From contig NZ_JACJUQ010000004.1 of the NCBI RefSeq assembly GCF_014235845.1, positions 62,001-126,000 on the forward strand: a stretch of 64,000 nucleotides of DNA. Direction: 5' to 3'. Numbering within the stretch: the stretch's first letter is position 1; each line of letters opens with the position of its first letter. Source of the stretch: Pontivivens nitratireducens (GTDB taxonomy: Bacteria; Pseudomonadota; Alphaproteobacteria; Rhodobacterales; Rhodobacteraceae). The position numbers and the translations under genes are program-made. Shown here piece after piece: positions 15,997 through 31,639 of this stretch. The notes under the pieces were generated by a model. The model had not been told where the DNA came from. It saw only the letters and a list, made by a program, of their open reading frames with translations, and did no database searches.

Positions 15997-16136
15997 GGGC
16001 AAACCTCGGAATTCTCGTTTTGCACACCCTAGGCATCCGACCGGAGGAGGGCAACGCGACACGACCCGAACCGGCCCGTGGCAGGATCGCGGGGTCGGGC
16101 GCGCGTCGCAGCGCACGCCCGAAAGTTCTCAGCCGA

Positions 16137-17786
16137 TTACATGTTCGGATAGTTCGGCCCGTCGCCGCCCTGCGGAACCGTCCAGACGATGTTCTGGAGG
16201 GGATCCTTGATGTCGCATGTCTTGCAGTGGACGCAGTTCTGACCGTTGATCTGGAACGATTTCTCACCTTCCTGACCCACGAATTCGTAAACGCCCGCAG
16301 GGCAGTAGCGCTGCGAAGGTCCGGCATATTTCGGCAGGTTCACATGCGTGGGCAGATCCGCATCCTTCAGCTTGAGGTGCGTCGGTTGATCCTCGGCATG
16401 ATTGGTGCCCGAAAAGGACACGTTGGTCAGCCGGTCAAAGCTGAGCTTCCCGTCCGCCTTGGGATAGTCGATGGGCTGGTGACGCCGGGCGGGTTCGGTG
16501 CTTTCCGCATCGGTCTTGCCGTGCTTCAGCGTGCCCAGCAGGGGCTTTCCGAACAGCGACGCCCACCACATATCGAGGCCGCCCACGACCATCGAGGCGA
16601 TCAGACCATAGCGGGACCACAACGGCTTGACGTTGCGCACCTTGATCAGATCCTTGCCGATCGCGCCGGTCTTGACCTCCTCGGTGTAGTCGGACAACTC
16701 ATCCGACTGGCGACCAGCCGCGATGGCAGCATGCGCAGCCTCGGCCGCGGCCTTGCCCGACAGCATCGCGTTGTGGTTGCCCTTGATCCGCGGCACGTTG
16801 ACGAGGCCGGCGGAACAGCCCAGCAGCGCGCCGCCCGGGAACGCCATCTTGGGGATGGATTGGAACCCGCCCTCGGTGATGGCGCGCGCGCCATAGGCGA
16901 CCCGCTTTCCCCCCTCGAACACAGGGGCGATGTCGGGGTGATGCTTGAACCGCTGAAACTCCTGATAGGGCGACAGGTAGGGGTTCTTGTAATTCAGGTG
17001 CGTCACGAAACCAACGTAGACCTGATTGTTTTCAGCGTGATACAGGAACGAACCGCCGCCCGCATTCTTGCCCAGTGGCCAGCCCATGGTGTGCGTGACC
17101 TGCCCCAGCTTGTGATGCTCGGGCTTGATATCCCAAACCTCCTTGATGCCCAGTCCGTATTTCTGGACATCGCAATCCGCGTCGAGACCGTAGCGCGCGA
17201 TGGCCATCTTGCTCAACGAACCGCGCACGCCCTCGGCCAGGAAGACGTACTTGCCGTGCAATTCCATCCCCGGCTCGTAGCCCGCGCCCTTGGTGCCGTC
17301 CTTCTCGATGCCGAATTCGCCTGCGACGACGCCCTTGACCTCTCCGTTATCGCCATAGACCAGTTCGGAGCAGGACATGCCGGGAAAGATTTCGACGCCC
17401 AGCGCCTCGGCCTGCTCGGCCATCCAGCGGCAGACATTGCCCATTGATACGACGTAGTTGCCATGGTTGTTCAACAGCGGCGGCATCGGAAAGTTCGGGA
17501 TCTTGACCGATCCGTTCGGGGCGAGGACGAGGAAGCGATCCTCGGTCACTTCGGTCGTGACAGGGGCCCCCTTCTCACGCCAATCGGGAATCAGCGCGTC
17601 CAGGCCGATGGGATCCAGCACAGCACCGGACAGGATGTGCGCTCCGACCTCGGACCCCTTTTCCAGAACGACGACGTTCATGTCAGCGTCGAGTTGTTTC
17701 AGCCGGATCGCAGCCGACAGGCCAGCAGGCCCCGCACCGACGATGACGACATCGTATTCCATGGCTTCACGTTCGACTTCAGACAT
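16137..17786 (-). CDS. Electron transfer flavoprotein-ubiquinone oxidoreductase
   Basis: Moves electrons from reduced ETF (fatty acid and amino acid oxidation) to ubiquinone at the inner membrane. The 549-aa protein begins with an FAD-binding VVIVGAGPAGLSAAIRL, has the membrane-associated quinone domain in the middle, and ends with a [4Fe-4S] domain whose ligands are Cys495 (YCPAGVYEF) and Cys518, Cys521 and Cys524 (NCVHCKTC), followed by DIKDP. All expected ligands are present and the length is standard. The electron-donor genes etfAB are not in this window. Confidence 0.96.
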   Translation of the reverse strand: MSEVEREAMEYDVVIVGAGPAGLSAAIRLKQLDADMNVVVLEKGSEVGAHILSGAVLDPIGLDALIPDWREKGAPVTTEVTEDRFLVLAPNGSVKIPNFPMPPLLNNHGNYVVSMGNVCRWMAEQAEALGVEIFPGMSCSELVYGDNGEVKGVVAGEFGIEKDGTKGAGYEPGMELHGKYVFLAEGVRGSLSKMAIARYGLDADCDVQKYGLGIKEVWDIKPEHHKLGQVTHTMGWPLGKNAGGGSFLYHAENNQVYVGFVTHLNYKNPYLSPYQEFQRFKHHPDIAPVFEGGKRVAYGARAITEGGFQSIPKMAFPGGALLGCSAGLVNVPRIKGNHNAMLSGKAAAEAAHAAIAAGRQSDELSDYTEEVKTGAIGKDLIKVRNVKPLWSRYGLIASMVVGGLDMWWASLFGKPLLGTLKHGKTDAESTEPARRHQPIDYPKADGKLSFDRLTNVSFSGTNHAEDQPTHLKLKDADLPTHVNLPKYAGPSQRYCPAGVYEFVGQEGEKSFQINGQNCVHCKTCDIKDPLQNIVWTVPQGGDGPNYPNM

Positions 17787-17856
17787 ATTTCGGCTTCCTT
17801 TGCATGGGTCCGGGCAATTTCATTTCGTGACAGGTATGGGGCCGGGCATTGCCCTG

Positions 17857-18948
17857 TCAATCGTATGCACGTGTATCAGGTGGCATCTCTTGCATCTTCT
17901 GCCCTGTTCTGGCGGGATTTTTCGTCAACCATCCCGCACCGATCCAGACTGCGATCACCGATATGATAGAAGCGTATCCATCAATGGCATAGTGCCAGCC
18001 ATAGATCACACTGCTCCACTGCGTCAGTACACAGAACCCGATCCCCAACACCCCGGCAAGGCGCCCCAGCGACATCAGGTATACCATCACCAGCGCCGCA
18101 ATGCCGACATGTACCGAGGGAAACGCCGATATGCCAAGACCCAGCCGGCCCTGCCGCAGCTCCACGTTCGCCCACAGCAAGTCCTGCAAGACCCGCACTG
18201 CATGATCGGGCGGCAGCAGGCCCTCCCGATGCTGCATGTATTCGGCATATCGGGGAATGCCGCTCAATGATTCGTAATATACCGGACCGACGGATGCGAA
18301 CGCTGTCGCCGCGATATTGCCCAATCCGATCCAGACGAAGACATAGACGATCAGCATTCGATCACGCCGTGCCGTATCGGTATCCAACGCAGCCACCAGA
18401 ACCGGCAACACCATGGATATGACGGCCCAGCCGTAATTGTAGCCGATAAAGGCGAGCCTGGGGGGAACGACCTCGACCAGGGGCCAGTACAGACGCCATG
18501 CGTCCTGCCCGCCATGCAGCGCATGATCCAGCCGCGCCAGCCACGGATCGGCCCAGAAGCCGAAGGGTAAAGACACCATGCCCTTGACCACGGCAAAGGC
18601 CGGCAGGAGGTACAGGTACAGACCGCAGCCGATCAGAATCGCTGCCAGCAGCCGCGTGGCCAGCCCCTGGGCCGCGCCGCGCCACAGTCCGTAGAACGTC
18701 ACGAACAGGCTCAGCCCCAGCAGGACGAGGACCAACACGGCGTCCCGCGTCCCCCGCATCGCCATTTCGACGACGCCGTGCGGCTCACCCAGCAATTGCG
18801 TCATCACCACCGTGGCCAGCAGATAGATGCCGAATGCCAGATTGAACAGGATCGGACCCGACAGCGCGGCGCGCGGCGACCTCTCACCCGCTGCCCGCGC
18901 AGGCCCTGTTCGCGCAGGCCCGGTTTCAGCCGTTCTCAGTTGCCGCAC
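17857..18948 (-). CDS. PAP2-superfamily membrane protein (inositol phosphotransferase-like)
   Basis: A polytopic membrane protein of about 363 aa with roughly seven to eight helices. The C-terminal third has the PAP2 catalytic signature: GISAFPSVHVGIAAL (SxxH) and GWHYAIDGYAS (HxxxD). The pattern fits the PAP2_3 group related to Aur1/Ipt1 phosphoinositol transferases, so it may transfer or remove a phosphate head group on a lipid; the substrate is unknown. The start is uncertain: no ATG is in place before the first helix, and I chose a GTG with GGGA about ten bases upstream. Other in-frame GTG/TTG codons lie within 20 codons. Confidence 0.75.
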   Translation of the reverse strand: MRQLRTAETGPARTGPARAAGERSPRAALSGPILFNLAFGIYLLATVVMTQLLGEPHGVVEMAMRGTRDAVLVLVLLGLSLFVTFYGLWRGAAQGLATRLLAAILIGCGLYLYLLPAFAVVKGMVSLPFGFWADPWLARLDHALHGGQDAWRLYWPLVEVVPPRLAFIGYNYGWAVISMVLPVLVAALDTDTARRDRMLIVYVFVWIGLGNIAATAFASVGPVYYESLSGIPRYAEYMQHREGLLPPDHAVRVLQDLLWANVELRQGRLGLGISAFPSVHVGIAALVMVYLMSLGRLAGVLGIGFCVLTQWSSVIYGWHYAIDGYASIISVIAVWIGAGWLTKNPARTGQKMQEMPPDTRAYD

Positions 18949-19075
18949 GCCTCGGGTTCCCTTGCAACTCACCAACTGCGAACCTATCGTCAATTGACAG
19001 GCCGTGCCAATCGAGTGCGGCCCTTTTTTTGTATTTCGCGCGGCGTGGTCCGCCACCGATTGACGGAGACGAACG

Positions 19076-19546
19076 ATGGAGAAGGTTCCCCTGACCGAGC
19101 GGGGTTTTGCGAAACTGGACGCCGAACTCAAGAAGCTCAAGCTTGAGGAACGCCCCGCCGTTATCAAGGCGATCGCGGAGGCCCGTGAGCATGGCGATCT
19201 GTCCGAAAACGCCGAATACCACGCCGCCCGCGAAAAGCAGTCCTTCATCGAGGGGCGCGTCAAGGAGTTGGAAAGCGTGATTTCCCGCGCCGAGGTCATC
19301 AAGGTCTCGAAAATGACCGGCGCGATCAAGTTCGGTGCCACGGTCACGATCGTGGATGAGGATACCGATGAGGAGAAGGTCTATCAGATCGTGGGTGAGC
19401 AGGAGGCCGATATCGAAAACGGTCTGCTCAACATGCGCTCTCCCATCGCGCGGGCCCTGATCGGCAAGGAAGAGGGCGACAGCGTCGATGTGCGCACGCC
19501 CGGCGGCACGCGCAGTTACGAGGTGCTGAAGATCGAATTCAAGTAG
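19076..19546 (+). CDS. greA: Transcription elongation factor GreA
   Basis: A 156-aa factor that rescues backtracked RNA polymerase by stimulating transcript cleavage. The N-terminal coiled coil carries the conserved [20 protein letters not shown] with the acidic tip (D and E), and the C-terminal domain shows [14 protein letters not shown] and the following GRALIGK-like [19 protein letters not shown] precedes the ATG. A gene of unknown function follows on the same strand. The last 11 bases of greA are repeated 16 bases downstream. Confidence 0.97.
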
Positions 19547-19574
19547 AGTGCAATTCAAGTAGTGGAGTAACCGG

Positions 19575-20546
19575 ATGCAGAGCGTCTGGAAGGGTTGGCC
19601 CATCGCGGGCGCTGCAATTTTCTGCTGGCTCGCGTTGATCGCGGCATGGTGGATCACGACAGAAAGCGGTCAGGGGTCGGGGCTGTTCGCCTTCATGGCG
19701 GCAATTGTGCCGTCCCTGCTGATCGGAATGCTTGCCTATGTCATCGAACGTCTGGGTGAGACGCGGGCACAAGTTTCCGATCTGGCGCAAACGGTGTCCA
19801 GCCAGCCGCGTGGCACCGCAAATCTCAGCCGGTCGGAAATAGACGCGATGTTCCAGAAGCTGACCGCGCGCCAGCAGGTCAGCGACCGGGCGCTGCTCTC
19901 CCTGCTCGAAGGGCGCGCGGCAGACAGGACGGTTCTGGCCGAGGTCGCGGAAAACTCGGCCCGCGCGGCCAGCGTGCGCCCGGTCCCGCGCCCGAAACCG
20001 ATGGTCGCGCCCAAGCGTGAAATCGGCCAATCCTCCCTGCCCCTGAACGAAGAGGCCGCCCCATCGGATGAGCCCCCCGCCTGGGCCGATCTGGTCCGCG
20101 CGCTAAACTTTCCGCAGGATCAGGATGATACGGCGGGATTCCGCGCCATGCACCGCGCCAACCGCGACAGACAGGTCGCACAGGTCCTGCGCGCGGCGGA
20201 GGATGTGCTCAACCTGCTGTCGCAAGACGGCATCTACATGGATGACCTCGATCCGATTGCCATCGACCCGGCATTGTGGCGTCGCTTCGCCGAGGGGGAA
20301 CGTGGCGATGTGACCTCGGGCCTTGCCGCGATAGACGACCAGACGGCGCTGTCGCTGACGCGGGGGCGGATGCGTTCGGACGACGTGATGCGCGACGCCG
20401 CGCTGCACTTCATCCGGCATTTCGATCTGTTGCTGAAATCCCTGTGCGCGCGCATGGACGACGACACGCAGATCGCACGGCTGGCGGATACCCGGACGGG
20501 GCGGGCCTTCATGCTGCTGGCCACGGTCACGGGGGCGTTGGAGTAA
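19575..20546 (+). CDS. Unknown two-helix membrane protein downstream of greA
   Basis: I do not recognise a named domain. The 323-aa product has two N-terminal membrane helices (about residues 8-29 and 37-58), then a helical stretch with coiled-coil tendency (ETRAQVSDLAQTVSS to LLEGRAADRTVLAEVAE), a proline-rich low-complexity linker (RPVPRPKPMVAPK, about residues 135-150), and a folded C-terminal domain of about 150 aa with many acidic residues (VLNLLSQDGIYMDDLDPIAIDPALW). The soluble part is most likely cytoplasmic. It begins 28 bases after greA. Similar proteins of unknown function occur beside greA in related genomes as far as I recall. Confidence 0.7.
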   Translation: MQSVWKGWPIAGAAIFCWLALIAAWWITTESGQGSGLFAFMAAIVPSLLIGMLAYVIERLGETRAQVSDLAQTVSSQPRGTANLSRSEIDAMFQKLTARQQVSDRALLSLLEGRAADRTVLAEVAENSARAASVRPVPRPKPMVAPKREIGQSSLPLNEEAAPSDEPPAWADLVRALNFPQDQDDTAGFRAMHRANRDRQVAQVLRAAEDVLNLLSQDGIYMDDLDPIAIDPALWRRFAEGERGDVTSGLAAIDDQTALSLTRGRMRSDDVMRDAALHFIRHFDLLLKSLCARMDDDTQIARLADTRTGRAFMLLATVTGALE

Positions 20547-20547
20547 C

Positions 20548-21726
20548 TCACTCCAGCGTCTGCTCACCGCTCCAGATACGGCGCAACCACAGCGCGAAAA
20601 CCAGTCCTGTCAGCGACATCGCCAAAGCCACCCCGTAGGTTGCCCCCCCCGCATAGGGATAGACCAGCGCCGCGATGGCCATCGCAATGGCGAACAGAAC
20701 ACCACCGATGACGGAGGAAAACATGCCCTGCGCCGAGGCGGCCAATCGCTCCGGCACCGCCGCCCCTATGAACGCGATCCCCCCCAGATGACCCGCCGCG
20801 AAGGTCAGTGCATGCAATGATTGCGTCACCCACAGCGCCACCCCGGTCGGATCGGTCATCATGATTCCCCACCGCACGATGCCGGCACATGCACTGATAG
20901 CGATAGCCCCCACTGCGCCGAAACGGGCGATCAGCCAGGTGCCCACGAACAGCATCAACGCCGTTTCGACCGCGACGCCAAAGGCCCAAAGCTGACCGAT
21001 CACAGCCTCCTCCACCCCCAGCGCCCGCCAGTGCAGCGAGCCATAGACATAAAGCACCGCATGGCTGGACTGCGCGAACCCGATTGCCGCGAGGAAAACC
21101 AGAAACCGCTTCTCGCTCAGCAAGCGTCCCAGATCGCTCAGCCGTGGCGGCGTGGACTGGCGCACCTTGCCCCCGCCGGGATGAGTCGCGCCGAACCAGA
21201 TCGTCAGCGCCAGGCTCGCCACGATCCACCATTGCGCGACCCCGATGCCATATCGCCCGACCAGCCAGCCGACGCCGAGGCTGGCAACCAGAAAGGCGAA
21301 CGACCCCAGCGACCGGGCCGGCGCATAGGCAAATCCTGCCGTGCGCGCAGCCGCCCCGCCCAGCGCATCGGCAATCGGGATCATCCCCGCGAAGACGATG
21401 CCGCTGCACAACGTGGCCAGCAACAGCACCGCCTTGTCAGCGAGCAAGCCGTGCACTGCGAAGATCAGGGCACCGAACGCCGCGACAACGGCCAGAACCA
21501 GCCTGCGATTGTCGATCCGATCCGCCAGCGCGGGCACCGTCAAACCGGCCACGACGCGAATGACCATGCCGGCGGCGGTGAAGGTGCCGATCTCCGCCTC
21601 GCTCAATCCCCAGTCCGACAGCCATAGCGGCCAGAACGGCAGGTGCGCGCCCAGGGCGGCGAAAATCGCGGCATAGGTCAGCGCCGTGCGGATACCCGCA
21701 GGTTGCAGCACAGGATTTCGAAGCAT
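20548..21726 (-). CDS. MFS transporter (phenylpropionate-permease-like)
   Basis: A 392-aa major facilitator protein with about twelve helices in two halves. The N-terminal half has LPFWPLWLSDWGLSEAEIG and VPALADRIDNRRLVLA, the loop 2-3 signature seen in the HcaT/PPP transporter group (MFS_1-like). Candidates are aromatic acids or nucleosides; the substrate cannot be deduced and no catabolic genes lie beside it. It converges with the greA-linked unknown gene (one base between stops). It lies downstream of the moeA fusion on the same strand with 105 bases between, including a dispersed repeat copy. Confidence 0.8.
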   Translation of the reverse strand: MLRNPVLQPAGIRTALTYAAIFAALGAHLPFWPLWLSDWGLSEAEIGTFTAAGMVIRVVAGLTVPALADRIDNRRLVLAVVAAFGALIFAVHGLLADKAVLLLATLCSGIVFAGMIPIADALGGAAARTAGFAYAPARSLGSFAFLVASLGVGWLVGRYGIGVAQWWIVASLALTIWFGATHPGGGKVRQSTPPRLSDLGRLLSEKRFLVFLAAIGFAQSSHAVLYVYGSLHWRALGVEEAVIGQLWAFGVAVETALMLFVGTWLIARFGAVGAIAISACAGIVRWGIMMTDPTGVALWVTQSLHALTFAAGHLGGIAFIGAAVPERLAASAQGMFSSVIGGVLFAIAMAIAALVYPYAGGATYGVALAMSLTGLVFALWLRRIWSGEQTLE

Positions 21727-21776
21727 GGGAGGCCCCTTTCAACCATCCCTTAGCAGCCGGATTGGCACCCGGAAAC

Positions 21777-21810
21777 CCTTTCACTTTCCGTAAATATCCG
21801 CGCCGCAGGC
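21777..21810 (-). repeat. Dispersed 3'-flank element, copy A
   Basis: Read on the minus strand this copy is GCCTGCGGCGCGGATATTTA followed by CGGAAAGTGAAAGG. It starts 21 bases past the stop codon of the moeA fusion, in that gene's direction of transcription. Copies B and C in this window are close matches in the same relative position and orientation. It contains no good hairpin by itself, so it is not an ordinary terminator. Confidence 0.65.
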
Positions 21811-21831
21811 AACCGTGCCGGTGTCACCACC

Positions 21832-23937
21832 TCAAATCCCGAACGACGACCATGCGTGATAGGTCACGGGCGTCCCCGGGCCGATATCGAGCGCCTCATC
21901 AGGCAGTTCACACAGCCCCTCGGCCCAGCTCAACCCGGCGATCCGGCCTGATCCCTCCGAAGGGTACACCTCGACCCGACCGTCGCGCACCCGCGCGCGC
22001 AGGAACTCGCGGCGTCCGGCCTTCTTGCGCTTGGTGAACGCAGCGGGCAGCGTTGAGCCCGTCAATACAGGCCAGTCCGCGCCCGCCAATGTCAGCAGTG
22101 CCGGACGGGCGAAGATCACGGCGCAGACCAGCGCGGCAACCGGATTTCCCGGCAGGCCGAAAACCGGAACGTCGCCCCACACTCCCAGCGCCAGCGGCCG
22201 CCCCGGCTTTATCGCGATCCGCCACGTTTGCAGGGCATTCGCCGCGCGCAAGGTTGCCGAAACGTGATCCTCATCCCCGGCGGAGGCACCGCCGGTGGTC
22301 AAGATCGCATCGGCCTGCGCGGCACCAGCATCCAGCGCCGCCCGCACGTCTTCGCGGCGATCCCCCGCGATGCCCAGATCGACGGCCTCCATGTTCCAGC
22401 GTTGCACCAGATCGATCAGCATGGGGCGGTTGGCATCTGGCAGGGTCGCATCGCCAGGCTGCCAGCGATCCGACAATTCGTCCCCGGTCGACAGCACGGC
22501 GACCCGCAATTTGCGCCGCACCGCGACCTGCCCCGCTCCACCCGCAGCCAGCAGGGCCAGATCAGGCGCACGCAGCCTGTGCCCCTGAGGCAGAAGGACG
22601 CTGCCCTGCGCGAAATCCTCCGCGCTTTGGCGGACATTGGCACCGGGACGCAGCCCGCTCTCGAACGAGATGGTGCTGCCGGTGCGGCTGGTGTCTTCCT
22701 CCATGATGACGGTATCGCATCCTTCAGGAACGGCCGCGCCCGTCAGGATCCGCAGCGCGGCATCGGGCGGGACCACACCGTCGAACGGCACCCCGGCCGC
22801 GGCGCGCCCTGGGGTGAGCGGCAGCGTGATCGTCGCGTTCCCTTCCCCCGCGCGCCATGCGAAGGCATAGCCGTCCACAGCCGCGTTCGCCACCGACGGG
22901 TTGGAGCGGCGGGCAACGGCATCCTGCGCCAGAACACGCCCGCCCGCCCTGCGCAACGCGACCGTTTCCGTGCCGACCACGGCTGTAAGGCTTCCCCGCA
23001 ACCGATCGAGCGCGGTGGCGACAGGCGTCCAGTGGACCCCCGGCGGCAAGGCGAAGCAGTCGTTGCGCAAACGCGGCGCGGTGCCCGTGGCCGGAACGCC
23101 AAGGATCCAGCCTTCCTCCTGCGTGATCACGTCACCCAGCGCGTGAATGTCCATCAGATCTGCCAGAACGCCCAACCGGTCCAGTCCGGCCAGATGTGCC
23201 GCCGTGACCCGCACCTGCGCACGGTCGGGAATTTCATCGCTTTCCCCTGAGGCGGCGATCTGCTCACGGAACAGACCGGGATAAATCTCGGCCAGCACCA
23301 CATCGCCATCGGGCACGGCGCCGTCCGTGTCGAACGGCCAGACCTGCGCCCCGATAGCCTTGCGCAAGGCGTGCAGCCGCGCGACACCCAGCAGGGATTG
23401 CGATCCGACACTGCCTGCCCCGGCAAGCTGCCAGACCGATTTCGTGCCCTTGGCGCGCCGCTCGACCATCCGGCGTTCGGGCATCCGGTGGTCTGTGCGC
23501 GTGTCGGTATAGGGAATTGCGGCCCAGCGGTCGCGATGCGATTTTGCCCAGAACGGACCCCCGTGGGGCAGTCCGGCGTTCAGAACTTCGGCCACGTCAT
23601 AGCGGTTGTTGGCATTGTCGGCGGCGTCCACGATCCGGGCCGCCAGATGATCCCAGACGGCCAGCGCGCGCGCCTGCCCCGTGACCGCCGCGGCGAAGCC
23701 CTGTGGCCAGCCGAACGCGAAATCGAAGCCGATCAGCACCCTGCGCCCGGCCGCGCGGTCCCGTTCCACCATCCGCATCAACTGCGCCATCGCCTCGGCC
23801 CGTGTGCGACAGTAGAGCGGAGCCTCATCCACGCCATCGCACGTGCGACCAATCCAGATAGCATCCCGGCAAGGCCCGGCAGGGGACGGGGTGGAGCGTG
23901 CCGACCAATCCACCGCCACGACGCTGTCGAAGATCAT
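21832..23937 (-). CDS. MoeA-type molybdopterin molybdenumtransferase with extra N-terminal domain
   Basis: A 701-aa fusion. Residues about 300-700 are a full MoeA, which inserts molybdate into adenylated molybdopterin: VANAAVDGYAF, LRILTGAAVPEGCDTVIMEED, the LSTGDEL and TTGGASAGDEDHV motifs and FGLPGNPVAA are all present. Residues 1-285 form a separate domain that ordinary MoeA (about 400 aa) lacks. It starts VVAVDWSA (Asp10), has LIGFDFAFGWPQG (Asp72) and LAEIYPGLF (Glu217); this resembles the RNase H-like DUF429 fold, which is my inference. The start overlaps the mobB stop by four bases. The joint operon with mobB, mobA and fdhD supports a molybdoenzyme role for both halves. Confidence 0.85.
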   Translation of the reverse strand: MIFDSVVAVDWSARSTPSPAGPCRDAIWIGRTCDGVDEAPLYCRTRAEAMAQLMRMVERDRAAGRRVLIGFDFAFGWPQGFAAAVTGQARALAVWDHLAARIVDAADNANNRYDVAEVLNAGLPHGGPFWAKSHRDRWAAIPYTDTRTDHRMPERRMVERRAKGTKSVWQLAGAGSVGSQSLLGVARLHALRKAIGAQVWPFDTDGAVPDGDVVLAEIYPGLFREQIAASGESDEIPDRAQVRVTAAHLAGLDRLGVLADLMDIHALGDVITQEEGWILGVPATGTAPRLRNDCFALPPGVHWTPVATALDRLRGSLTAVVGTETVALRRAGGRVLAQDAVARRSNPSVANAAVDGYAFAWRAGEGNATITLPLTPGRAAAGVPFDGVVPPDAALRILTGAAVPEGCDTVIMEEDTSRTGSTISFESGLRPGANVRQSAEDFAQGSVLLPQGHRLRAPDLALLAAGGAGQVAVRRKLRVAVLSTGDELSDRWQPGDATLPDANRPMLIDLVQRWNMEAVDLGIAGDRREDVRAALDAGAAQADAILTTGGASAGDEDHVSATLRAANALQTWRIAIKPGRPLALGVWGDVPVFGLPGNPVAALVCAVIFARPALLTLAGADWPVLTGSTLPAAFTKRKKAGRREFLRARVRDGRVEVYPSEGSGRIAGLSWAEGLCELPDEALDIGPGTPVTYHAWSSFGI

Positions 23938-24452
23938 GATGCCCCGCCTTCCTCCTTGTGCAGACCGACTTCGCGCAGGATGAACGCGGCAATGGCCCGG
24001 GTGTCGTTCAGATCGAGCACGGGAACGGCCAGATCCTTCGGGGTGCTGTCGCTTGCCACCGCGCGGATCGTGTCGTCATCCGGCGCGATCAGCGGTTGGC
24101 CGGTGGCGTTGCGATGCGCCTCGATCTTGGGATGGCGGTCGCGCTTGTACCCCTCGATCAGGACCAGATCGACCGGGCTCAGACGGTGCAGCAATTCATC
24201 CAGCGCAGGCTCAGGCTCGCCACGCAGCTCGTGCATCAGAGCCCAGCGATTGCGCGACGCCAACAGCACCTGCCGTGCGCCGGCCATGCGGTGACGAAAA
24301 CTGTCCTTTCCGGGGTGATCCACGTCAAAGGAATGGTGCGCGTGCTTGATGGTCGAGACGGAATATCCCCGCGCGGTGATATCATCCACCAGACGTTCCA
24401 TCAGTGTCGTCTTGCCGGAGTTTTTCCAGCCCGTGATACCGTAAAGCCTCAT
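23934..24452 (-). CDS. mobB: Molybdopterin-guanine dinucleotide biosynthesis protein MobB
   Basis: A 172-aa GTP-binding P-loop protein that assists MobA in adding GMP to molybdopterin. Walker A is GWKNSGKTTLMERL near residues 8-21, followed by STIKHAHHSFDVDHPGKDSFRHR and VDLVLIEGYKRDRHPKIE, all diagnostic of MobB. The ATG at this position overlaps the mobA stop as ATGA, so coupling decides the start although no strong ribosome site is seen. Its own stop overlaps the moeA fusion. Confidence 0.95.
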   Translation of the reverse strand: MRLYGITGWKNSGKTTLMERLVDDITARGYSVSTIKHAHHSFDVDHPGKDSFRHRMAGARQVLLASRNRWALMHELRGEPEPALDELLHRLSPVDLVLIEGYKRDRHPKIEAHRNATGQPLIAPDDDTIRAVASDSTPKDLAVPVLDLNDTRAIAAFILREVGLHKEEGGAS

Positions 24453-25051
24453 CCGATGCGTCGCCTTGCCTGTTGCAGATCGTCGGGGGTGTTGACGTTG
24501 AAAAACGGGTCGTCGCCTGCGAACACCACACGTGCGCAGCCGTGGCGGTCCGTCCACGCGACCACCTTACGCGTGCCATCGCTCAATGCGCGGCGCAAAT
24601 CGTCGCGCAGATCGACGGACCACAGGCCGAAGGTGGGGTGCCGGTCGAACCCTCCACCCGGACGCTCGGTCTCGGCGCGGGCCAGCAATTTGCCCTCGGA
24701 CGCCATGCCGGCCCACAGATCGGCAACCAGGCCGGGGGGGAAGAACGGCGTATCCGCCGCCGCCGTCGCGATCAGGTCGAAGCCTTGCGCGGCGGCCCAG
24801 TCCATACCGGCCAGAACTCCGGCCAAAGGCCCTGCGCGGGTGTCATCAGCATCGGCCACCACCGGCAGGCCGAACGGCGCAAAGCGTCGCGGGTCCCCAT
24901 TGGCGTTCAGGGCCAGCACCGTGACCTGAGGCGACAGGCGATCGACCACATGCGCCAGCAAGGGTTTTCCCCCCAGATCGAGCAGTCCCTTGTCGCCGCC
25001 CCCCATCCGGGTGGCGCGCCCCCCGGCCAGAATGATCCCCGCGACGTTCAT
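24449..25051 (-). CDS. mobA: Molybdenum cofactor guanylyltransferase MobA
   Basis: A 200-aa nucleotidyltransferase that transfers GMP from GTP to molybdopterin to make the MGD cofactor used by bacterial formate dehydrogenases and DMSO-reductase-family enzymes. The N-terminal GIILAGGRATRMGGGDKGL is the family signature, with AAADTPFFPPGLV as the metal-binding segment. Its presence implies that this bacterium makes bis-MGD enzymes. It is coupled by four-base overlaps to the unknown membrane protein upstream and to mobB downstream. Confidence 0.95.
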   Translation of the reverse strand: MNVAGIILAGGRATRMGGGDKGLLDLGGKPLLAHVVDRLSPQVTVLALNANGDPRRFAPFGLPVVADADDTRAGPLAGVLAGMDWAAAQGFDLIATAAADTPFFPPGLVADLWAGMASEGKLLARAETERPGGGFDRHPTFGLWSVDLRDDLRRALSDGTRKVVAWTDRHGCARVVFAGDDPFFNVNTPDDLQQARRRIG

Positions 25052-25821
25052 GCCTGTACCTCACACTCACGAGCACGCAGGATGTCAGCCTCGTCCTGGT
25101 CGACCTCGCTCATCATGATGCGTGACCAAACGGACGGTCGTCGGTCGAAGATGCATTCCGCCACCCGCCGCTCGATCTGCCGGCGCGCCTCGAACCGGGT
25201 GAGCAGCTCCGTCTCGAACCGCCGGGCGCCGGTTCTGATCTTGTCCACATCCAGCCGCAGCCACCGCATCGGGTCTGTCACGGCCTCGGGCGGGCAGCTC
25301 AGATGGCTGGAGGCGAAGGCATGTTGCGTCGCGCGCGACAGGAAGCGGTCGTGCACCAGCGTGATACACCCGTCGATCCGCGCGAACTTGCTGGCGAAAT
25401 CGCCGATGAACGAGGCCGAAAGCTCCGCACGCAGTCCCTCCGCCGCATCGAACCCGTCCAGAGTGGCGAGGATCTGCGGCAGTTGCGTGTTCCATCGTTG
25501 ATAGATCGCATCGTAGAGGATCTTGCGCTCCAACACTTCGTGCATGACCTGCCGTTGCAGCGCGGAGCGCAGCAGATCGGTCATCGCCGCCCGTTCGAAC
25601 ATCAGGGTCGTGATGCGGTTCGCGTGCGATGCATCATCCTGCCAGCGCGCGGCGATCTGGACCAGGCTGTCGTCATAGCTGCGGCGGGCGTCGGCGTTGC
25701 GCTGGATGCTCTGGTTGATGAACGTACCGATAATGCTGGACAGGACGAACACCACGAAGGTCAGAAACAGCGGATGGGCCAGCCATGCCGCCCGGCCCGG
25801 GGGGTGGTTATCCTCGCTCAT
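25048..25821 (-). CDS. Unknown single-helix membrane protein in the Mo-cofactor cluster
   Basis: Not recognised. The 257-aa product has a short polar N-terminus, one strong membrane helix (about residues 17-36, LFLTFVVFVLSSIIGTFINQ) and then about 220 residues of mostly helical, charged soluble domain with three cysteines. No enzyme motif is visible. The start is the ATG with GGAAAGGG upstream; it lies 14 bases inside the end of fdhD, and the gene's stop overlaps mobA by four bases. It therefore sits in the middle of a tightly coupled fdhD-mobA-mobB-moeA transcript, which suggests a role with a membrane-bound molybdoenzyme or its maturation, but this is inference only. Confidence 0.7.
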   Translation of the reverse strand: MSEDNHPPGRAAWLAHPLFLTFVVFVLSSIIGTFINQSIQRNADARRSYDDSLVQIAARWQDDASHANRITTLMFERAAMTDLLRSALQRQVMHEVLERKILYDAIYQRWNTQLPQILATLDGFDAAEGLRAELSASFIGDFASKFARIDGCITLVHDRFLSRATQHAFASSHLSCPPEAVTDPMRWLRLDVDKIRTGARRFETELLTRFEARRQIERRVAECIFDRRPSVWSRIMMSEVDQDEADILRARECEVQA

Positions 25822-26695
25822 GACGTGCCCTTTCCTGCGGATTTGCCCCTGTGGATTTGCGCGGCTCTTCGGCCACATGCGCGGGGTTTGCGTCGCGGAT
25901 CAGACGATCCTCACCCGCCAGGCAGACGAACCGCCTGCCTCGCATCCGCCCGATCAGCGTCAGTCCGACCTGACGCGCGATTTCCACCCCCCACGCGGTG
26001 AAGCCGGAGCGGCTGACCAGCACGGGAATACCCATCAGCGCCGTCTTTATGACCATCTCGGATGTCAGACGCCCCGTGGTGTAGAGGATCTTGTCCGACG
26101 GGTCGGCGCCTTGCATTCGCATCCAGCCCGCGATCTTGTCCACCGCGTTGTGGCGACCGACATCCTCCATGTAGACCAGCGCCCGATCCTGTCGGCACAG
26201 CACGGTGCCGTGGATCGCACCCGCCTCCAGATACAGGCTGGGCGTTGTGTTGATGCGATGGGCGAGCGTGTAGAGCCAGCTTGTGCGCAGTTCGGCCAAC
26301 GGCAGGCGCACGCCCTCCAGCCCCTCCATCATGTCGCCAAAGACTGTGCCGACCGCGCAGCCAGAGGTCCGGGTCTTGCGCTTGAGCTTATCCTCGTAAT
26401 CCGTGGCGCGGGCGGTGCGCACGACGACGGTTTCCACCTCCTCGTCGAAATCGACGGCGGTGATCCGGTCATCGGACAGCAGCATCCCCTGATTGGACAG
26501 ATATCCCACGGCCAGCCAGCGCGGGTGATCCCCGATGGTCATTGCCGTCACGATCTCCTGCGAATTGAGATAGATCGTCAGGGGCCGTTCCTCGACCACG
26601 CGCAGATCGACCTCCCGCCCCTCATGGTCGCGCCCGCTGAGCGCGCGCGTCAGCGTCAGATCGTCGGGGGATGGGCCGATCAGGTAGTCGCTCAT
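25808..26695 (-). CDS. fdhD: Formate dehydrogenase sulfurtransferase FdhD
   Basis: A 295-aa accessory protein that passes sulfur from a cysteine desulfurase to the bis-MGD cofactor of formate dehydrogenase. Family patterns are clear: EERPLTIYLNSQEIVTAMTI, VGYLSNQGML, the RTSGCAVG loop, GAIHGTVLCR with DVGRHNAVDKIAG, and TGRLTSEMVIKTA. The loop has Cys113 but Gly116 where E. coli FdhD has the second cysteine of its CxxC. Formate dehydrogenase structural genes are not in this window. It is coupled to the hydrolase gene by ATGA and to the next gene by a 14-base overlap. Confidence 0.93.
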   Translation of the reverse strand: MSDYLIGPSPDDLTLTRALSGRDHEGREVDLRVVEERPLTIYLNSQEIVTAMTIGDHPRWLAVGYLSNQGMLLSDDRITAVDFDEEVETVVVRTARATDYEDKLKRKTRTSGCAVGTVFGDMMEGLEGVRLPLAELRTSWLYTLAHRINTTPSLYLEAGAIHGTVLCRQDRALVYMEDVGRHNAVDKIAGWMRMQGADPSDKILYTTGRLTSEMVIKTALMGIPVLVSRSGFTAWGVEIARQVGLTLIGRMRGRRFVCLAGEDRLIRDANPAHVAEEPRKSTGANPQERARHERG

Positions 26696-27363
26696 GCCGA
26701 TTTCTCCGTGTCGAAGCGTCCGTTGCGCAGGAACGCGGCCGTCTGCCGCGCCGCGCCCATCGACAGGGGCAGCATTCCGTGCACCGTCCGCGTGATCAGC
26801 GCATCCGCATGATCTATGCCCAGTGCGGAGCTAACCGGGACCATGCCATCCGACGGCTCCGCCAGCCCCCAGAAACCACTTACCGGGCCGATCGGCGCAG
26901 ACCCGGCAATGATGCCCAGATCCCGCGCGACCTCCGGCGGCAGATGATCCAGCCCCATATCGGCTGCGGCCAGCCGTTCCAGCGCCGGGCCCATCAAATC
27001 CGCGACCAGGCGATAATCGCGAAAGAACGTGGCCATGGGCGAGCCCAGATTCGGCGGCCCCAATTGCACCACCCGTCCGATGCGGTCGGGCTGCGCGATC
27101 TTGATCCGCAACGCCAGCACCCCGCCCAGTGAATGCCCCACCAGATCGCAAGGTCCCGGCGACAGCGCGTCCAGTTGCTGGACCAGATCGGCCTGTGCCT
27201 CGGCCGGAACGACATGGCGTGAGCGATAATGCATCAGGAACGTGCGAAAGCCTGCTGCCTCCAACCGATTTGCCATCAGCGTCATCGAGCCCGGACCACG
27301 GCCCAGCCCGTGGATCAGACCCACCGCGCGACGATCATCCGAATTCTGTGCCAAATCACTCAT
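26692..27363 (-). CDS. Alpha/beta hydrolase (lipase-like) upstream of fdhD
   Basis: A hydrolase of about 223 aa with GLIHGLGRGPGSM as the oxyanion-hole region and the nucleophile elbow GHSLGG (Ser78 from the chosen start). DGMVPV and the later HGMLPLS are the likely Asp and His sites. It resembles small cytoplasmic esterases/acyltransferases. The substrate is unknown. An in-frame ATG 12 codons upstream (27399) is an alternative start, and neither has a strong ribosome site. Its stop overlaps the fdhD start by four bases, so it leads the Mo-cofactor cluster transcript; no functional link to molybdenum metabolism is evident. Confidence 0.75.
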   Translation of the reverse strand: MSDLAQNSDDRRAVGLIHGLGRGPGSMTLMANRLEAAGFRTFLMHYRSRHVVPAEAQADLVQQLDALSPGPCDLVGHSLGGVLALRIKIAQPDRIGRVVQLGPPNLGSPMATFFRDYRLVADLMGPALERLAAADMGLDHLPPEVARDLGIIAGSAPIGPVSGFWGLAEPSDGMVPVSSALGIDHADALITRTVHGMLPLSMGAARQTAAFLRNGRFDTEKSA

Positions 27364-27505
27364 CGTTCGAGATAGGAACTTTTGCGCGATCATGTCCACA
27401 CCGATACGCTCCCATCAGATTGCAGATCGTTATGGACACAATTCCCGTCTTGGCCTCACCGCCCGGATCGCCAATAGTCCGCACGATCCGAAAAGGAGCG
27501 TTTCT

Positions 27506-28237
27506 ATGGCCGAGATATCTTCTATCCAAGCCGGCACCTCGGCATGGTTCTGGCGCGGCGTGCGCGACGGCGCACCCTTCACCCTGGTCATTGCACCGTT
27601 CGCGCTGCTGTTCGGCGTTGTCGCGACCGAGGCCGGGCTGCCGCTGCTGGAAACCATGGTGATGACCGTACTGGTGATCGCGGGCGCGTCGCAATTTACC
27701 GCCGTGACGTTGATGCTGGACAACGCCCCGCTGTTCATCGTCATCCTCACCGCGCTGGCGGTCAACCTGCGCATGGCGCTGTATTCCGCATCGCTGAGCA
27801 CGCATCTGAATTCATTGCCCCTGTGGAAGAAAGCTTTCGTCGCCTATTTCCTGGTCGATCAGGCCTATGCCGCGTCGGTGGCGCAATACGAGACGGAGCC
27901 GAGCGCCCCAGTCCGGTCCAAATTCGCCTATTTCATGGGTGTCGTGACGCCGATCGCGCCCCTGTGGTACGGCTGCACATGGATCGGCGCGGTGGCGGGC
28001 AGCGCGATCCCGCAGGAATATGCGCTGGATTTCGCGGTGCCGATCACATTCATCGCCCTGATCGCGCCGATGTTGCGCACCATTCCGCATGTGATGACGG
28101 CTATCGTTTCCATCGTGGCGGCGCTGGCGCTGGTCTGGGTGCCCTACTCGCTGGGCCTGATCATTGCGGCGGCATTGGCGATGGCCGCAGGGGCCGCGAC
28201 GGAAATCGCGCTCGAACGCCGGGGAGGGGACTCGTGA
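27506..28237 (+). CDS. azlC: AzlC family branched-chain amino acid exporter, large subunit
   Basis: A 243-aa inner-membrane protein with about six to seven helices, belonging to the AzlC/YgaZ family that together with a small AzlD/YgaH partner exports branched-chain amino acids or methionine. Characteristic stretches are GAPFTLVIAPFALLFGVVATEAG, GASQFTAVTLML and NLRMALYSASLSTHL. AGGAG precedes the ATG well. The gene overlaps azlD by one base (TGATG). It is divergent from the hydrolase gene and converges, through azlD, with an Lrp-type regulator. Confidence 0.92.
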   Translation: MAEISSIQAGTSAWFWRGVRDGAPFTLVIAPFALLFGVVATEAGLPLLETMVMTVLVIAGASQFTAVTLMLDNAPLFIVILTALAVNLRMALYSASLSTHLNSLPLWKKAFVAYFLVDQAYAASVAQYETEPSAPVRSKFAYFMGVVTPIAPLWYGCTWIGAVAGSAIPQEYALDFAVPITFIALIAPMLRTIPHVMTAIVSIVAALALVWVPYSLGLIIAAALAMAAGAATEIALERRGGDS

Positions 28238-28557
28238 TGGACATGCGCGATATCTGGATCGTCATCATAGCACTGGGGATCGGCACATTCGCGATCCGCT
28301 TCTCGTTTCTGGGCCTGATGACAGGCCGGCGCTTTCCTGACTGGACCATGCGCCTGCTGCGCTATGTTCCGGTTGCCGTCATGCCGGGACTGGTGGCCCC
28401 GCTGGTGGTCTGGCCCGCCGCGACAGATGGCGACTTCGACCCGGCCCGCATCGGCGCGGCACTGGTGGCGCTGCTCATCGGTGCGGGGACGCGAAACACG
28501 CTGGGCGCGATCTTCGGCGGTCTGGCGACGCTCTATCTATTGTTGTGGCTTCTGTAG
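28237..28557 (+). CDS. azlD: AzlD family exporter small subunit
   Basis: A 106-aa membrane protein with about four helices, the obligate partner of AzlC. Family features include FAIRFSFLGLM and LLRYVPVAVMPGLVAPLVV near residues 40-58, and GAGTRNTLGAIFGGL near the end. It starts within the azlC stop codon (TGATG). Its last 25 bases overlap the 3' end of the convergent Lrp-type regulator gene. Confidence 0.92.
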   Translation: MDMRDIWIVIIALGIGTFAIRFSFLGLMTGRRFPDWTMRLLRYVPVAVMPGLVAPLVVWPAATDGDFDPARIGAALVALLIGAGTRNTLGAIFGGLATLYLLLWLL

Positions 28558-29018
28558 GCAGGCACCGGCAACTCCCCACCCGCGCGCACCGTGCGCAGGG
28601 CGAAGCTGGACTGCATCTGGACCACTCCGGGCAGGCGGGACAGATGCTCGCGGTGAATGCGGGCGAAATCGTCGCTGTCCGCAGCCATCACCTTGGCCAG
28701 ATAATCCGCTGATCCCGCCATCAGATGGCATTCCACCACGTCGGGAACCAACAGGATCGCGGCCTCGAACAGGTCGAGCACAGCCTGACTTTGCCCGTTC
28801 AAGGTGAACTCCACATAAACGACCGTGCGCCGCATGATCGCCACCGGGTCCAGCCGCGCGCCATAACCTGCGATCACGCCGCCTGCCTCCAGCCGCCGCA
28901 CCCGGCGATGACAGGCGGAGGCGGAAAGATTCGCCGCCTCCGCCAGCGCCGCGTTCGACTGTCGCGCATCGCGCTGCAGCAAGGTCAGCAACTTCAAGTC
29001 CTGCGCATCCAAGTCCAC
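28533..29018 (-). CDS. Lrp/AsnC family transcriptional regulator
   Basis: A 161-aa regulator: an N-terminal helix-turn-helix (LKLLTLLQRDARQSNAALAEAANLSASACHRRVRRLEAGGVI) and a C-terminal RAM/ligand domain (VEFTLNGQS, VVECHLMAGSADYLAKV). The start is GTG with GGAGG upstream. It is divergent from alanine dehydrogenase, the layout of AldR-type activators that respond to alanine, and convergent with azlCD, the layout recalling B. subtilis azlB. It may control either or both. It should act as dimers and higher oligomers on the 137-base intergenic region. Confidence 0.92.
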   Translation of the reverse strand: MDLDAQDLKLLTLLQRDARQSNAALAEAANLSASACHRRVRRLEAGGVIAGYGARLDPVAIMRRTVVYVEFTLNGQSQAVLDLFEAAILLVPDVVECHLMAGSADYLAKVMAADSDDFARIHREHLSRLPGVVQMQSSFALRTVRAGGELPVPAYRSHNNR

Positions 29019-29075
29019 TGTCGGAAAATCCTCCCGCAATACGGCGGAACCACGCCTGAAATCGGTCACATTCTG

Positions 29076-29114
29076 GCGAAGTACCACACATCTTCGCAAG
29101 CACTTTGCACGCAA
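29076..29114. promoter_or_regulatory. Candidate Lrp-type operator region between lrp and ald
   Basis: The 137-base divergent region holds GCGAAG (29076-29081) repeated in inverse as CTTCGC (29092-29097) with a 10-base spacer, then TTGCACGCAA (29105-29114) with 4-base arms. These lie 42-80 bases before the ald start, a usual place for an Lrp-family activator. They are short and the assignment rests on position. Confidence 0.35.
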
Positions 29115-29155
29115 GTTCAGGCATGATGCACGTTATAAAATCAACGGAGGTTTCC

Positions 29156-30262
29156 ATGCATATCGGTTGCCCTACTGAAATCAAAGTTCGTGAATACCGC
29201 GTCGGCCTGACGCCCGCCGCCGTCCATTCCCTGACCGGGCGCGGTCATTCGGTCACCATCCAGGCGGGGGCCGGTCTGGGCGCAGGCTTCTCCGACGCCG
29301 ACTATATCGCCGCCGGGGCTCAGATCGGGGATGTCGATGCGGTCTTTGCCGCTGACATGATCGTAAAGGTCAAGGAGCCGCAGGCGGATGAACGCGCCCG
29401 CCTGTGCAAGGGGCAGACCCTGTTTACCTATCTGCACCTCGCCCCCGATACGCCGCAGACGCAGGACCTGCTCGCGTCCGGCGCCACCTGTATCGCGTAT
29501 GAGACTGTGACCGACCGCAACGGCGGCCTGCCCCTGCTGGCCCCGATGTCCGAGGTCGCCGGTCGTCTGGCCCCGCAAGTCGGTGCGTGGTCCCTGCAAA
29601 AGGCCAATGGCGGGCGCGGCGTTCTGATGGGCGGCGTGCCGGGGGTCGGTCCGGCGGATGTTGTCGTCATCGGCGGTGGCGTCGTGGGCACCCACGCGGC
29701 GCGGATCGCGGCGGGCATGGGCGCGCGCGTCACGGTGCTGGACCTGTCCCTGCCCCGTCTGCGGCAGTTGGACGACCAGTTCGGCGGCGTCTTTGGCACC
29801 CGCTACGCCAGCCCTGCCAATATCGCGGAACTCGTCAGGCAGGCCGACATGATCGTCGGAGCCGTCCTGATCCCCGGTGCGGCCGCGCCCAAGCTGCTCA
29901 CCCGTGCCGATCTGTCCACGCTCAAGCCAGGGGCGGTTCTGGTCGATGTGGCCATAGATCAGGGCGGATGTTTCGAGACGTCGAAGGCCACGACCCACGA
30001 CGATCCGATCTACGAGGTGGACGGCATCGTGCATTACTGCGTCGCGAACATGCCCGGCGCGGTCGCGCGTACATCCACCATCGCGCTCGGCAATGCGACG
30101 ATGCCCTTCGTTCTGGCCCTGGCCGACAAGGGCTGGAACGCGGCGTGCGCCGCTGACCCTCACCTTGCCGCCGGTCTGAACGTCCATGAAGGCACCCTTA
30201 CGAACGAAGCAGTGGCCACGGCACAGAACCTCGACTGGGTCGCGCCCGAGACGTTGCTGTAA
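29156..30262 (+). CDS. ald: Alanine dehydrogenase
   Basis: NAD-dependent enzyme that interconverts alanine with pyruvate and ammonia, serving alanine catabolism. The 368-aa protein is of family length. It opens MHIGCPTEIKVREYRVGLTP with the substrate-binding Arg15, has Lys73 in VKVKEPQ and His94 in YLHLAPD, and the NAD-binding VVVIGGGVVGTHAARIAAGMGA. CGGAGG precedes the ATG with good spacing, which decides between it and an upstream in-frame ATG. It is divergent from the Lrp-type regulator. Confidence 0.96.
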   Translation: MHIGCPTEIKVREYRVGLTPAAVHSLTGRGHSVTIQAGAGLGAGFSDADYIAAGAQIGDVDAVFAADMIVKVKEPQADERARLCKGQTLFTYLHLAPDTPQTQDLLASGATCIAYETVTDRNGGLPLLAPMSEVAGRLAPQVGAWSLQKANGGRGVLMGGVPGVGPADVVVIGGGVVGTHAARIAAGMGARVTVLDLSLPRLRQLDDQFGGVFGTRYASPANIAELVRQADMIVGAVLIPGAAAPKLLTRADLSTLKPGAVLVDVAIDQGGCFETSKATTHDDPIYEVDGIVHYCVANMPGAVARTSTIALGNATMPFVLALADKGWNAACAADPHLAAGLNVHEGTLTNEAVATAQNLDWVAPETLL

Positions 30263-30275
30263 CCGAAACGACAAA

Positions 30276-30299
30276 GGGCCGGAGGTTCGCCGCCGGCCC
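30276..30299 (+). terminator. Hairpin terminator after ald
   Basis: A 7-bp perfect stem GGGCCGG/CCGGCCC with a 10-base loop starts 14 bases after the ald stop. There is no U-run, only ATTCTCCTT, so termination may be inefficient or Rho-assisted. It lies between the convergent ald and mscL genes and could serve both. Confidence 0.55.
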
Positions 30300-30300
30300 A

Positions 30301-30332
30301 TTCTCCTTCCGGAAATATCCCCGCCGGAGGCT
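30301..30332 (-). repeat. Dispersed 3'-flank element, copy B
   Basis: Read on the minus strand this copy is AGCCTCCGGCGGGGATATTT followed by CCGGAAGGAGAA. It starts 18 bases beyond the mscL stop, in the direction of mscL transcription. It shares the GCCTCCGGCGGGGATATTT core exactly with copy C and with two differences from copy A. Confidence 0.65.
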
Positions 30333-30350
30333 CCCCGGCGTGCAGCAGGC

Positions 30351-30788
30351 TCAAACCTGCGTGGTGCCGCGCGCCATCAGGTCGCGGATTTCGATCAGGA
30401 GTTGTTCCTGCGTCGGGCCCACGGGTCCGGGCATCACTTCTTTCTCTTCCTCGGCCATGGTTTCCTTGACGCGGTTCACGCCCTTGACCAGCAGGAACAC
30501 GACGAAGGCAATGATCAGGAAGTTGATGACGGCGTTGATGAACGAGCCATAGGCGAAGACGGCGGCACCGGCCTGCTGCGCCTCGACCAGCGAAGCATAT
30601 TCGGAGCCGTCCAGCACGACGAACAGGTTGGTGAAATCTATCCCCCCGGTGAACAATCCGACGAACGGGTTGATCAGGTCCTTCACCACGGATTGCACGA
30701 TCGCGGTAAACGCGGCGCCGATGATGATGCCGACGGCCATGTCCATGACATTGCCCTTGGCGATAAACTTCTTGAATTCTTGCAGCAT
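30351..30788 (-). CDS. mscL: Large-conductance mechanosensitive channel
   Basis: A 145-aa inner-membrane channel that opens under membrane tension to release solutes during hypo-osmotic shock. The start [31 protein letters not shown] is diagnostic: amphipathic N-terminal helix followed by TM1 with the glycine-rich gate. A periplasmic loop follows, then TM2 (about residues 82-104, [22 protein letters not shown]) and a cytoplasmic helical bundle rich in glutamate. Length and topology are standard. It converges with ald. Confidence 0.97.
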
Positions 30789-30935
30789 CCCTTGCCTCCC
30801 CCTGTGTGGCGCGCATACGATCCCTAGCGTGTAGCGGATGGGAGCAGGCGGTCAAGAAACTTGCGATTCGCGCCCGTGGTTGGTTGCGCGCGGTTTCGCG
30901 CCTACCTTCGAGGGACAATCCCCAAGGAGATGACG

Positions 30936-31637: not shown

Positions 31638-31639
31638 CC

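Follow-up and report, generated by a model that had tools for sequence, protein, structure and literature searches.

The window analyzed here, a stretch of 64,000 nucleotides from Pontivivens nitratireducens, carries on its minus strand a reading frame (21832-23937) that begins with ATG and remains open for 701 codons. The frame encodes a 701-residue fusion protein (P0001), defined by the ORF and its domain matches, whose architecture recurs in locus L062 and others. Its N-terminal part is a predicted RNase H-like domain, hereafter DOM (residues 1-284; 23086-23937, minus strand), supported by a match to NCBIfam NF011066, an AlphaFold model and invariant acids. The MoeA part (residues 305-701; 21832-23025, minus strand) matches Pfam MoeA_N (305-467), MoCF_biosynth (480-614) and MoeA_C (631-695), in this order and all above the Pfam cut-offs. 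The alignment to Escherichia coli MoeA (PDB 1fc5; E 5.5e-62) starts at residue 306 of the fusion protein, and the extra N-terminal part thus measures about 285-300 residues. The ORF and the three Pfam domains bear out a previous reading, made from the sequence only, which had described, without giving its strand, a single 701-codon frame ending in a MoeA; the motifs that it named also lie where it placed them, with VVAVDWSA at residues 6-13, GFDFAFGWPQG containing Asp72 and AEIYPGLF containing Glu217.

That reading had named a frame error as the result that would split the protein into two genes. Such an artefact is ruled out, since the same fusion is present in many genomes: the nearest relative, Monaibacterium marinum (L062), has a fused ORF of 704 codons (71% identity in DOM, 69% in MoeA), and 27 of the 110 distinct loci have DOM and MoeA joined in a single open frame. 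By eye, in the 1fc5 alignment, the window MoeA keeps the E. coli active-site set, which we take to be D59, T100, E188, D228, D259, K275 and K279, save that K275 is replaced by Arg. Its scores fall below the NCBIfam equivalog cut-offs of NF011060 (373.8 against 532), NF007960 (329.1 against 440) and NF045515 (219.2 against 475). Judged by its sequence, the window protein is a MoeA, though none of these named equivalogs. A second MoeA, 37% identical and without DOM, is encoded elsewhere in the genome. The AlphaFold model of the full-length fusion (pTM 0.47) does not give the packing of the two halves.

DOM-moeA is the last molybdenum cofactor (Moco) gene of a tight operon, in which the order is alpha/beta-hydrolase, fdhD, a 276-residue orphan, mobA, mobB and DOM-moeA. 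The fdhD gene (25808-26695, minus strand), for the formate dehydrogenase accessory sulfurtransferase, was identified by Pfam FdhD-NarQ (E 3.9e-72), and mobA (24449-25051, minus strand), for the molybdenum cofactor guanylyltransferase, by TIGR02665 above its cut-off. For mobB (23934-24452, minus strand; Pfam MobB, E 5.5e-51) the start was taken at the Met of MRLYGITG. With this choice, the ORF coordinates give 4-base overlaps at four gene pairs (hydrolase-fdhD, orphan-mobA, mobA-mobB and mobB-DOM-moeA), and the run from the hydrolase to DOM-moeA therefore looks like one translationally coupled operon.

The 276-residue ORF between fdhD and mobA (25048-25878, minus strand) has no Pfam or NCBIfam match and, among the loci compared, occurs only in the window's own; L062 lacks it, with some 20 bases between its fdhD and mobA matches. 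After DOM-moeA comes an MFS_1_like transporter gene (20548-21726, minus strand), whose counterpart in L062 occupies the same place and is 81% identical. The window genome also has a stand-alone CobH, and its formate dehydrogenase alpha subunit is 77% identical to the fdhF product of Alloyangia pacifica, a gene that sits near that species' copy of the same operon.

A pocket like that of MoeA1 in the MoeA half

Two residues of the MoeA half align with positions discussed for MoeA1 of Methylorubrum extorquens. R580 of IKPGR (22198-22200, minus strand) corresponds to Arg291 of MoeA1, and A601 of GLPGNPVAA (22135-22137, minus strand) to Ala312 of MoeA1 and Ser303 of E. coli MoeA. In the portions of the study available to us, MoeA1, MobB and FdhD are described as a tungsten-specific route to formate dehydrogenase, and the tungsten bias of MoeA1 is linked to Arg291 and Ala312 (Phan and Kim 2026, PMC13197769). 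According to the same portions, MoeA1 of strain AM1, a tungstate insertase, resembles the window MoeA in having the Arg and Ala of the pocket 21 residues apart and in acting with MobB, MobA and FdhD. It differs in that these portions mention no fused DOM and place moeA1-mobB with tungstate transport genes (PMC13197769).

The pocket was then read in the 36 MoeAs whose match covered about 350 residues or more. All 35 operon MoeAs carry Arg/Ala, and the second MoeA of the window genome carries Lys/Ser; one of the 35 (L184) belongs to a genome that carries its DOM elsewhere, as a CobH fusion. Given the match of Arg580 and Ala601 to MoeA1, the window operon may be a tungsten-biased or dual formate-dehydrogenase module, two residues being no proof. 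Formate dehydrogenases of related bacteria are known as molybdenum enzymes.

Family, predicted fold and conserved acids of DOM

Pfam gave no match to DOM residues 1-284 at E<=0.1, and a PDB sequence search returned only two matches (E 0.51 and 0.64). The entire domain matches the C-terminal half of NCBIfam NF011066 (PRK14495; profile positions about 167-442, E 4.8e-67), a family named 'putative MobB/unknown domain fusion protein'; the domain had thus come to NCBI's notice without receiving a name. The window protein stays below the PRK14495 cut-off of 596, scoring 226.9 bits for DOM alone and 225 over its whole length. The architectures differ: PRK14495 is MobB-DOM in a single chain, whereas the window has DOM-MoeA, with MobB encoded by a separate overlapping ORF. 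The expectation that DOM would match no characterized molybdenum-cofactor domain stands to the extent that PRK14495, although a named family, is itself uncharacterized.

The label 'DUF429-type', which the sequence-only reading had attached to DOM, is not supported. PF04250 (DUF429) gave no row for residues 1-284 at E<=0.1, nor any match in 10 further DOM-family proteins and distant kin at E<=1. When DOM was compared by hhalign with a profile of 14 DUF429 sequences, the probability was 4% and the E value 0.0097, close to the CobH control run against the same profile (E 0.029); the MoeA control gave E 0.35. DOM resembles DUF429 in its predicted fold, in having acids both in strand 1 and at strand 4, and in its strand-4 motif (GFDF.FGYP in DOM, VDMPIGLP in DUF429); it differs in its strand-1 motif, in being less basic and in the lack of an HMM match. 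In the available part of their survey, Majorek et al. (2014, PMC3985635) place DUF429 in clade D of the RNase H-like superfamily, together with RuvC, and mention that it occurs fused to Nudix and to RelA/SpoT domains, each of them a nucleotide enzyme. For the function of DOM, these fusions are a lead and not a test.

The AlphaFold2 model of DOM, built from eight sequences only, reached a pTM of 0.82 and a pLDDT of 77, with residues 120-180 modeled more poorly. Its elements follow the order of the RNase H core, beta-beta-beta-alpha-beta-alpha-beta-alpha. Among the leading VIA-align matches were Tex (Z 8.2), terminase nucleases, Spt6 and RuvC (Z 7.3, 131 residues aligned), followed by Ppx/GppA phosphatases (Z 6.6); these are middling values, with one chain of 1000 at Z>=8. 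RuvC (4ld0), YqgF and Tex are among the best matches to DOM (Z 6.3 to 8.2) and differ from it in having about 10% identity and other genomic partners. Foldseek found no match at E<=0.001 against the PDB or against viral models. DOM very probably has an RNase H-like fold, and the earlier assignment of this fold is supported, as a prediction, by the model and the VIA-align matches.

Four acids stand out in the model and the alignment, all encoded on the minus strand: D10 at the end of strand 1 (23908-23910), D72 just after strand 4 (23722-23724), E217 in strand 5 (23287-23289) and D238 at the start of the C-terminal helix (23224-23226). In the predicted structure they are placed as in the metal sites of the RNase H-like superfamily, which use strand 1, strand 4 and the C-terminal helix. 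Across the conservation alignment, which holds 107 sequences after omission of 3 distant rows of 110, all 107 are identical at D10, W11, D72, N120, W130, R156, G178, Q180, P201, E217 and D238, and E275 is conserved at 99%. The site of three acids proposed earlier was therefore correct as to conserved acids and short by one in its count, D238 having been missed. DOM is probably catalytically active. The same site is found in all contexts, so a single chemistry across them is likely.

Molybdenum-cofactor and vitamin B12 contexts

Within the window's family (Rhodobacteraceae), DOM was found in 67 of 120 genomes. In the other 53 none was found, so MoeA does not need DOM, and DOM is dispensable. 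We matched the places of DOM and MoeA and their open frames by hand: 34 of the 67 genomes appear to carry the fusion (the window genome included, and G102 counted from a partial DOM match), and in 8 the two are adjacent but separate (G009 with a partial MoeA match). Ruegeria sp. TM1040 encodes DOM on its own, as a 'hypothetical protein' whose gene stands between mobB and moeA. An open MobB-DOM frame was seen in 3 of 110 loci (L028, L089 and L093), and L093 passes the PRK14495 cut-off (764.8 against 596).

The 110 distinct loci, a collection biased to the window's family, comprise 27 MoeA-fused, 24 Moco-adjacent, 9 CobH-fused, 10 B12-adjacent, 1 RarA and 39 other cases. MobA lies within 2.5 kb of DOM in 50 of the 51 Moco-type loci, a count that is partly circular because the Moco-type label means the presence of MobA, MobB, MoeA, FdhD or ModA. 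The informative point beyond this count is that MobA alone stands beside DOM in nine loci, where DOM directly follows mobA and the flank read (about 1.5 kb per side in five of them) contains neither mobB nor moeA nor fdhD. Nine records in a plasmid collection also contained DOM; of the four surroundings read, two were Moco operons and two, from Azospirillum, were neither Moco nor B12.

The sequence-only reading had raised the question of whether the domain occurs only fused or next to moeA or mobAB. It does not, as CobH fusions and B12 operons contain it too. The DOM family was found here chiefly in Alphaproteobacteria; in a class-wide search with its profile, 81 of 385 genomes gave a match. 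The 43 strong matches (E<=1e-50) divide into 15 with a B12 context, 5 with a Moco context and 23 with neither. This last class is an upper bound, inflated by contigs that end near DOM (147 bases downstream in L170) and by a reference set without several cob and moa genes; genes in the flanks were called by codon score. The Moco cases are four from the window's family plus G571, where DOM lies beside a modA-like gene and fdhD. Outside that family the 39 strong matches comprise 15 B12, 1 Moco and 23 neither; there, the context of DOM is often B12, yet not mostly.

The 15 B12 contexts come from 9 family codes. In five of them DOM and CobH form a fusion, in five DOM lies directly upstream of CobH, in three it is beside CobU, and in one each beside CobQ (L166) and CobD (L157). 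The CobU neighbors are those of L148, L159 and L162, the latter two also having CobS and CobT. Fused DOM-CobH genes lie inside B12 operons in L064, L068 (Cucumibacter marinus), L071 and L085, the operon taking the form CbiX-DOM-CobH-methyltransferases-CbiG. In L064 the CobH part (precorrin-8X methylmutase) matches PF02570 (E 7.9e-63), and Pfam identifies CbiX upstream and tetrapyrrole methylases and a CbiG-methylase fusion downstream; we take the downstream methylase genes to be CobL, CobI, CobJ and CobM. CbiX and CobH flank DOM in 14 of 19 B12-type loci.

A quickly made tree of DOM, whose branches are long and in which 33 forks of 107 stay open, was used only to ask whether contexts cluster and how often fusion changed. 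The contexts do cluster, 29 changes being counted where shuffling gave a mean of 60.6; on the starred branches, MoeA fusion must have changed 5 times or more and CobH fusion 2 times or more.

Several other neighborhoods were recorded. In L154 (3561-6575, plus strand; genome G839), DOM is in frame with a hydantoinase A-like protein over 1005 open codons, possibly a fourth fusion partner, and in L065 a similar large gene lies next to DOM in the opposite direction. Loci L073-L083 (families f5, f13 and others) have a stand-alone DOM in a partly conserved neighborhood, which in L075 comprises, by Pfam, a class II DAHP synthase, a MATE transporter, a zinc-type oxidoreductase and a Gfo/Idh oxidoreductase. 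Distant DOM relatives stand directly beside rarA, which encodes a replication-linked AAA+ ATPase, in L087, L088 (where rarA has a Pfam MgsA_C match), L096, L175 and L177, and on an Azospirillum plasmid another follows dnaE. The wider DOM family is therefore not confined to cofactor clusters; the weaker relatives near rarA are homologous to DOM over the full length (profile-profile probability 99.8%, E 1.4e-30, 6 sequences).

A candidate function in cofactor biosynthesis

We consider it reasonably likely that the role of DOM is tied to the synthesis of Moco, or of the tungsten cofactor (Wco), and of B12; this is tempered by the fact that B12 contexts are a minority (15 of 39) outside the window's family. 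In favor of a cofactor role are the in-frame fusions to MoeA (27/110), CobH (9/110) and MobB (3/110). Our best guess, a tentative one, is that DOM is a metal-dependent phosphohydrolase acting on a cofactor intermediate, possibly a guanylylated one. That DOM acts on a nucleotide-bearing cofactor, as the sequence-only reading had proposed, is possible. The intact four-acid site, the acidic to neutral charge in four of five context groups and the several near-invariant tryptophans lead us to favor a phosphohydrolase, and the prospects that its substrate is a small cofactor or nucleotide rather than a nucleic acid appear slightly below even. The proposed chemistry draws on the predicted fold and on the general behavior of RNase H-like enzymes; with the family, fusions, neighborhoods and invariant acids as observations, we infer metal binding and hydrolysis.

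In this model, DOM would be a single RNase H-like enzyme domain serving cofactor biosynthesis, which in the window's family would work in a formate-dehydrogenase cofactor module of FdhD, MobA, MobB and MoeA. Its four acids would hold one or two divalent metal ions, and the bond that it hydrolyzes would be a phosphate, pyrophosphate or nucleotide bond, either in a cofactor intermediate or in a by-product. Two features are common to both pathways, the insertion of a metal and a stage activated by GMP, at which MobA makes MGD and CobU makes adenosylcobinamide-GDP. MobA is the steadiest Moco neighbor of DOM, and CobU is its neighbor in three B12 loci. GMP activation (MobA; CobU) would be the candidate stage common to the two, the DOM step being one of clean-up, proofreading or release, and fusion would hold DOM beside the enzyme carrying the intermediate. 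The full version, a hydrolase for a nucleotide-activated intermediate that is common to the Mo/W-cofactor and B12 pathways and was repeatedly recruited to MoeA, MobB and CobH, seems rather unlikely to be right in all its parts. That the substrate is specifically a guanylylated intermediate is improbable: CobH acts before any nucleotide step, and the fusion to it, the basic B12-adjacent members and the rarA kin all count against this narrow version. Against the best guess more generally stand the 23 of 43 strong matches with neither context, the dispensability of DOM and the middling fold matches.

It is also conceivable, though we doubt it, that DOM binds rather than catalyzes, acting as a scaffold or chaperone that passes an intermediate or metal ion along MobB, MobA, MoeA and FdhD, or between CbiX and CobH. 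DOM does stand beside a metal-insertion enzyme in both pathways (MoeA and the chelatase CbiX), and several near-invariant tryptophans could stack on rings. A MoeA1-MobB platform is reported for M. extorquens in the accessible part of PMC13197769. However, the four-acid RNase H-type site kept in 107 of 107 sequences is more than binding seems to require.

An unlikely role, too, is that of a nuclease or RNA-binding regulator acting on the mRNA or riboswitch of cofactor genes, with the MoeA or CobH fusion conveying cofactor status. The predicted RuvC/Tex/terminase-like fold and the invariance of the four acids would fit such a role, and the rarA and dnaE neighbors of distant kin suit a nuclease; Moco and B12 genes are, besides, often under riboswitch control. 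However, an Rfam scan of window positions 15000-32000 gave no family at gathering score, no nucleic-acid gene was seen among the fused partners, and the median charge of DOM is acidic to neutral in four of five context groups (median pI 5.2 for MoeA-fused DOM and 8.4 for B12-adjacent DOM, against 9.3 for the 14 DUF429 sequences).

An unrelated housekeeping role, with ancestral gene order carried over into both cofactor clusters, would agree with the 23 of 43 strong matches that lie elsewhere, as in the DAHP synthase/MATE/oxidoreductase neighborhood of f5 and f13, and with the 53 of 120 family genomes lacking DOM, but it is made improbable by the in-frame fusions to MoeA, MobB and CobH, by the spread of the 15 B12 contexts over 9 family codes and by the 20 of 43 strong matches in a cofactor context against about 1 expected if such contexts took up an assumed 2% of positions, an enrichment whose P value is only indicative because the genomes are related and the rate is assumed.

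The RNase H-like fold, the PRK14495 domain and MoeA are of known kinds. Within the open-licence PMC literature, where we found no paper describing the role of DOM under DUF429, PRK14495, or MoeA or CobH fusions, neither its pairing with MoeA and CobH nor the two-cofactor pattern seems to have been described. The late assembly of Moco and Wco poses questions about the task of MobB, the choice of metal and the hand-off to FdhD, and the accessory genes of B12 operons pose others; a catalytic-looking domain fused into both pathways provides a concrete handle on them. The DOM relatives in B12 clusters hint at an unrecognized step common to two very different cofactors. For the window's family, in which this operon is common, the Arg/Ala pocket predicts that the operon could build a tungsten cofactor, and this would bear on CO2-reducing formate dehydrogenases.
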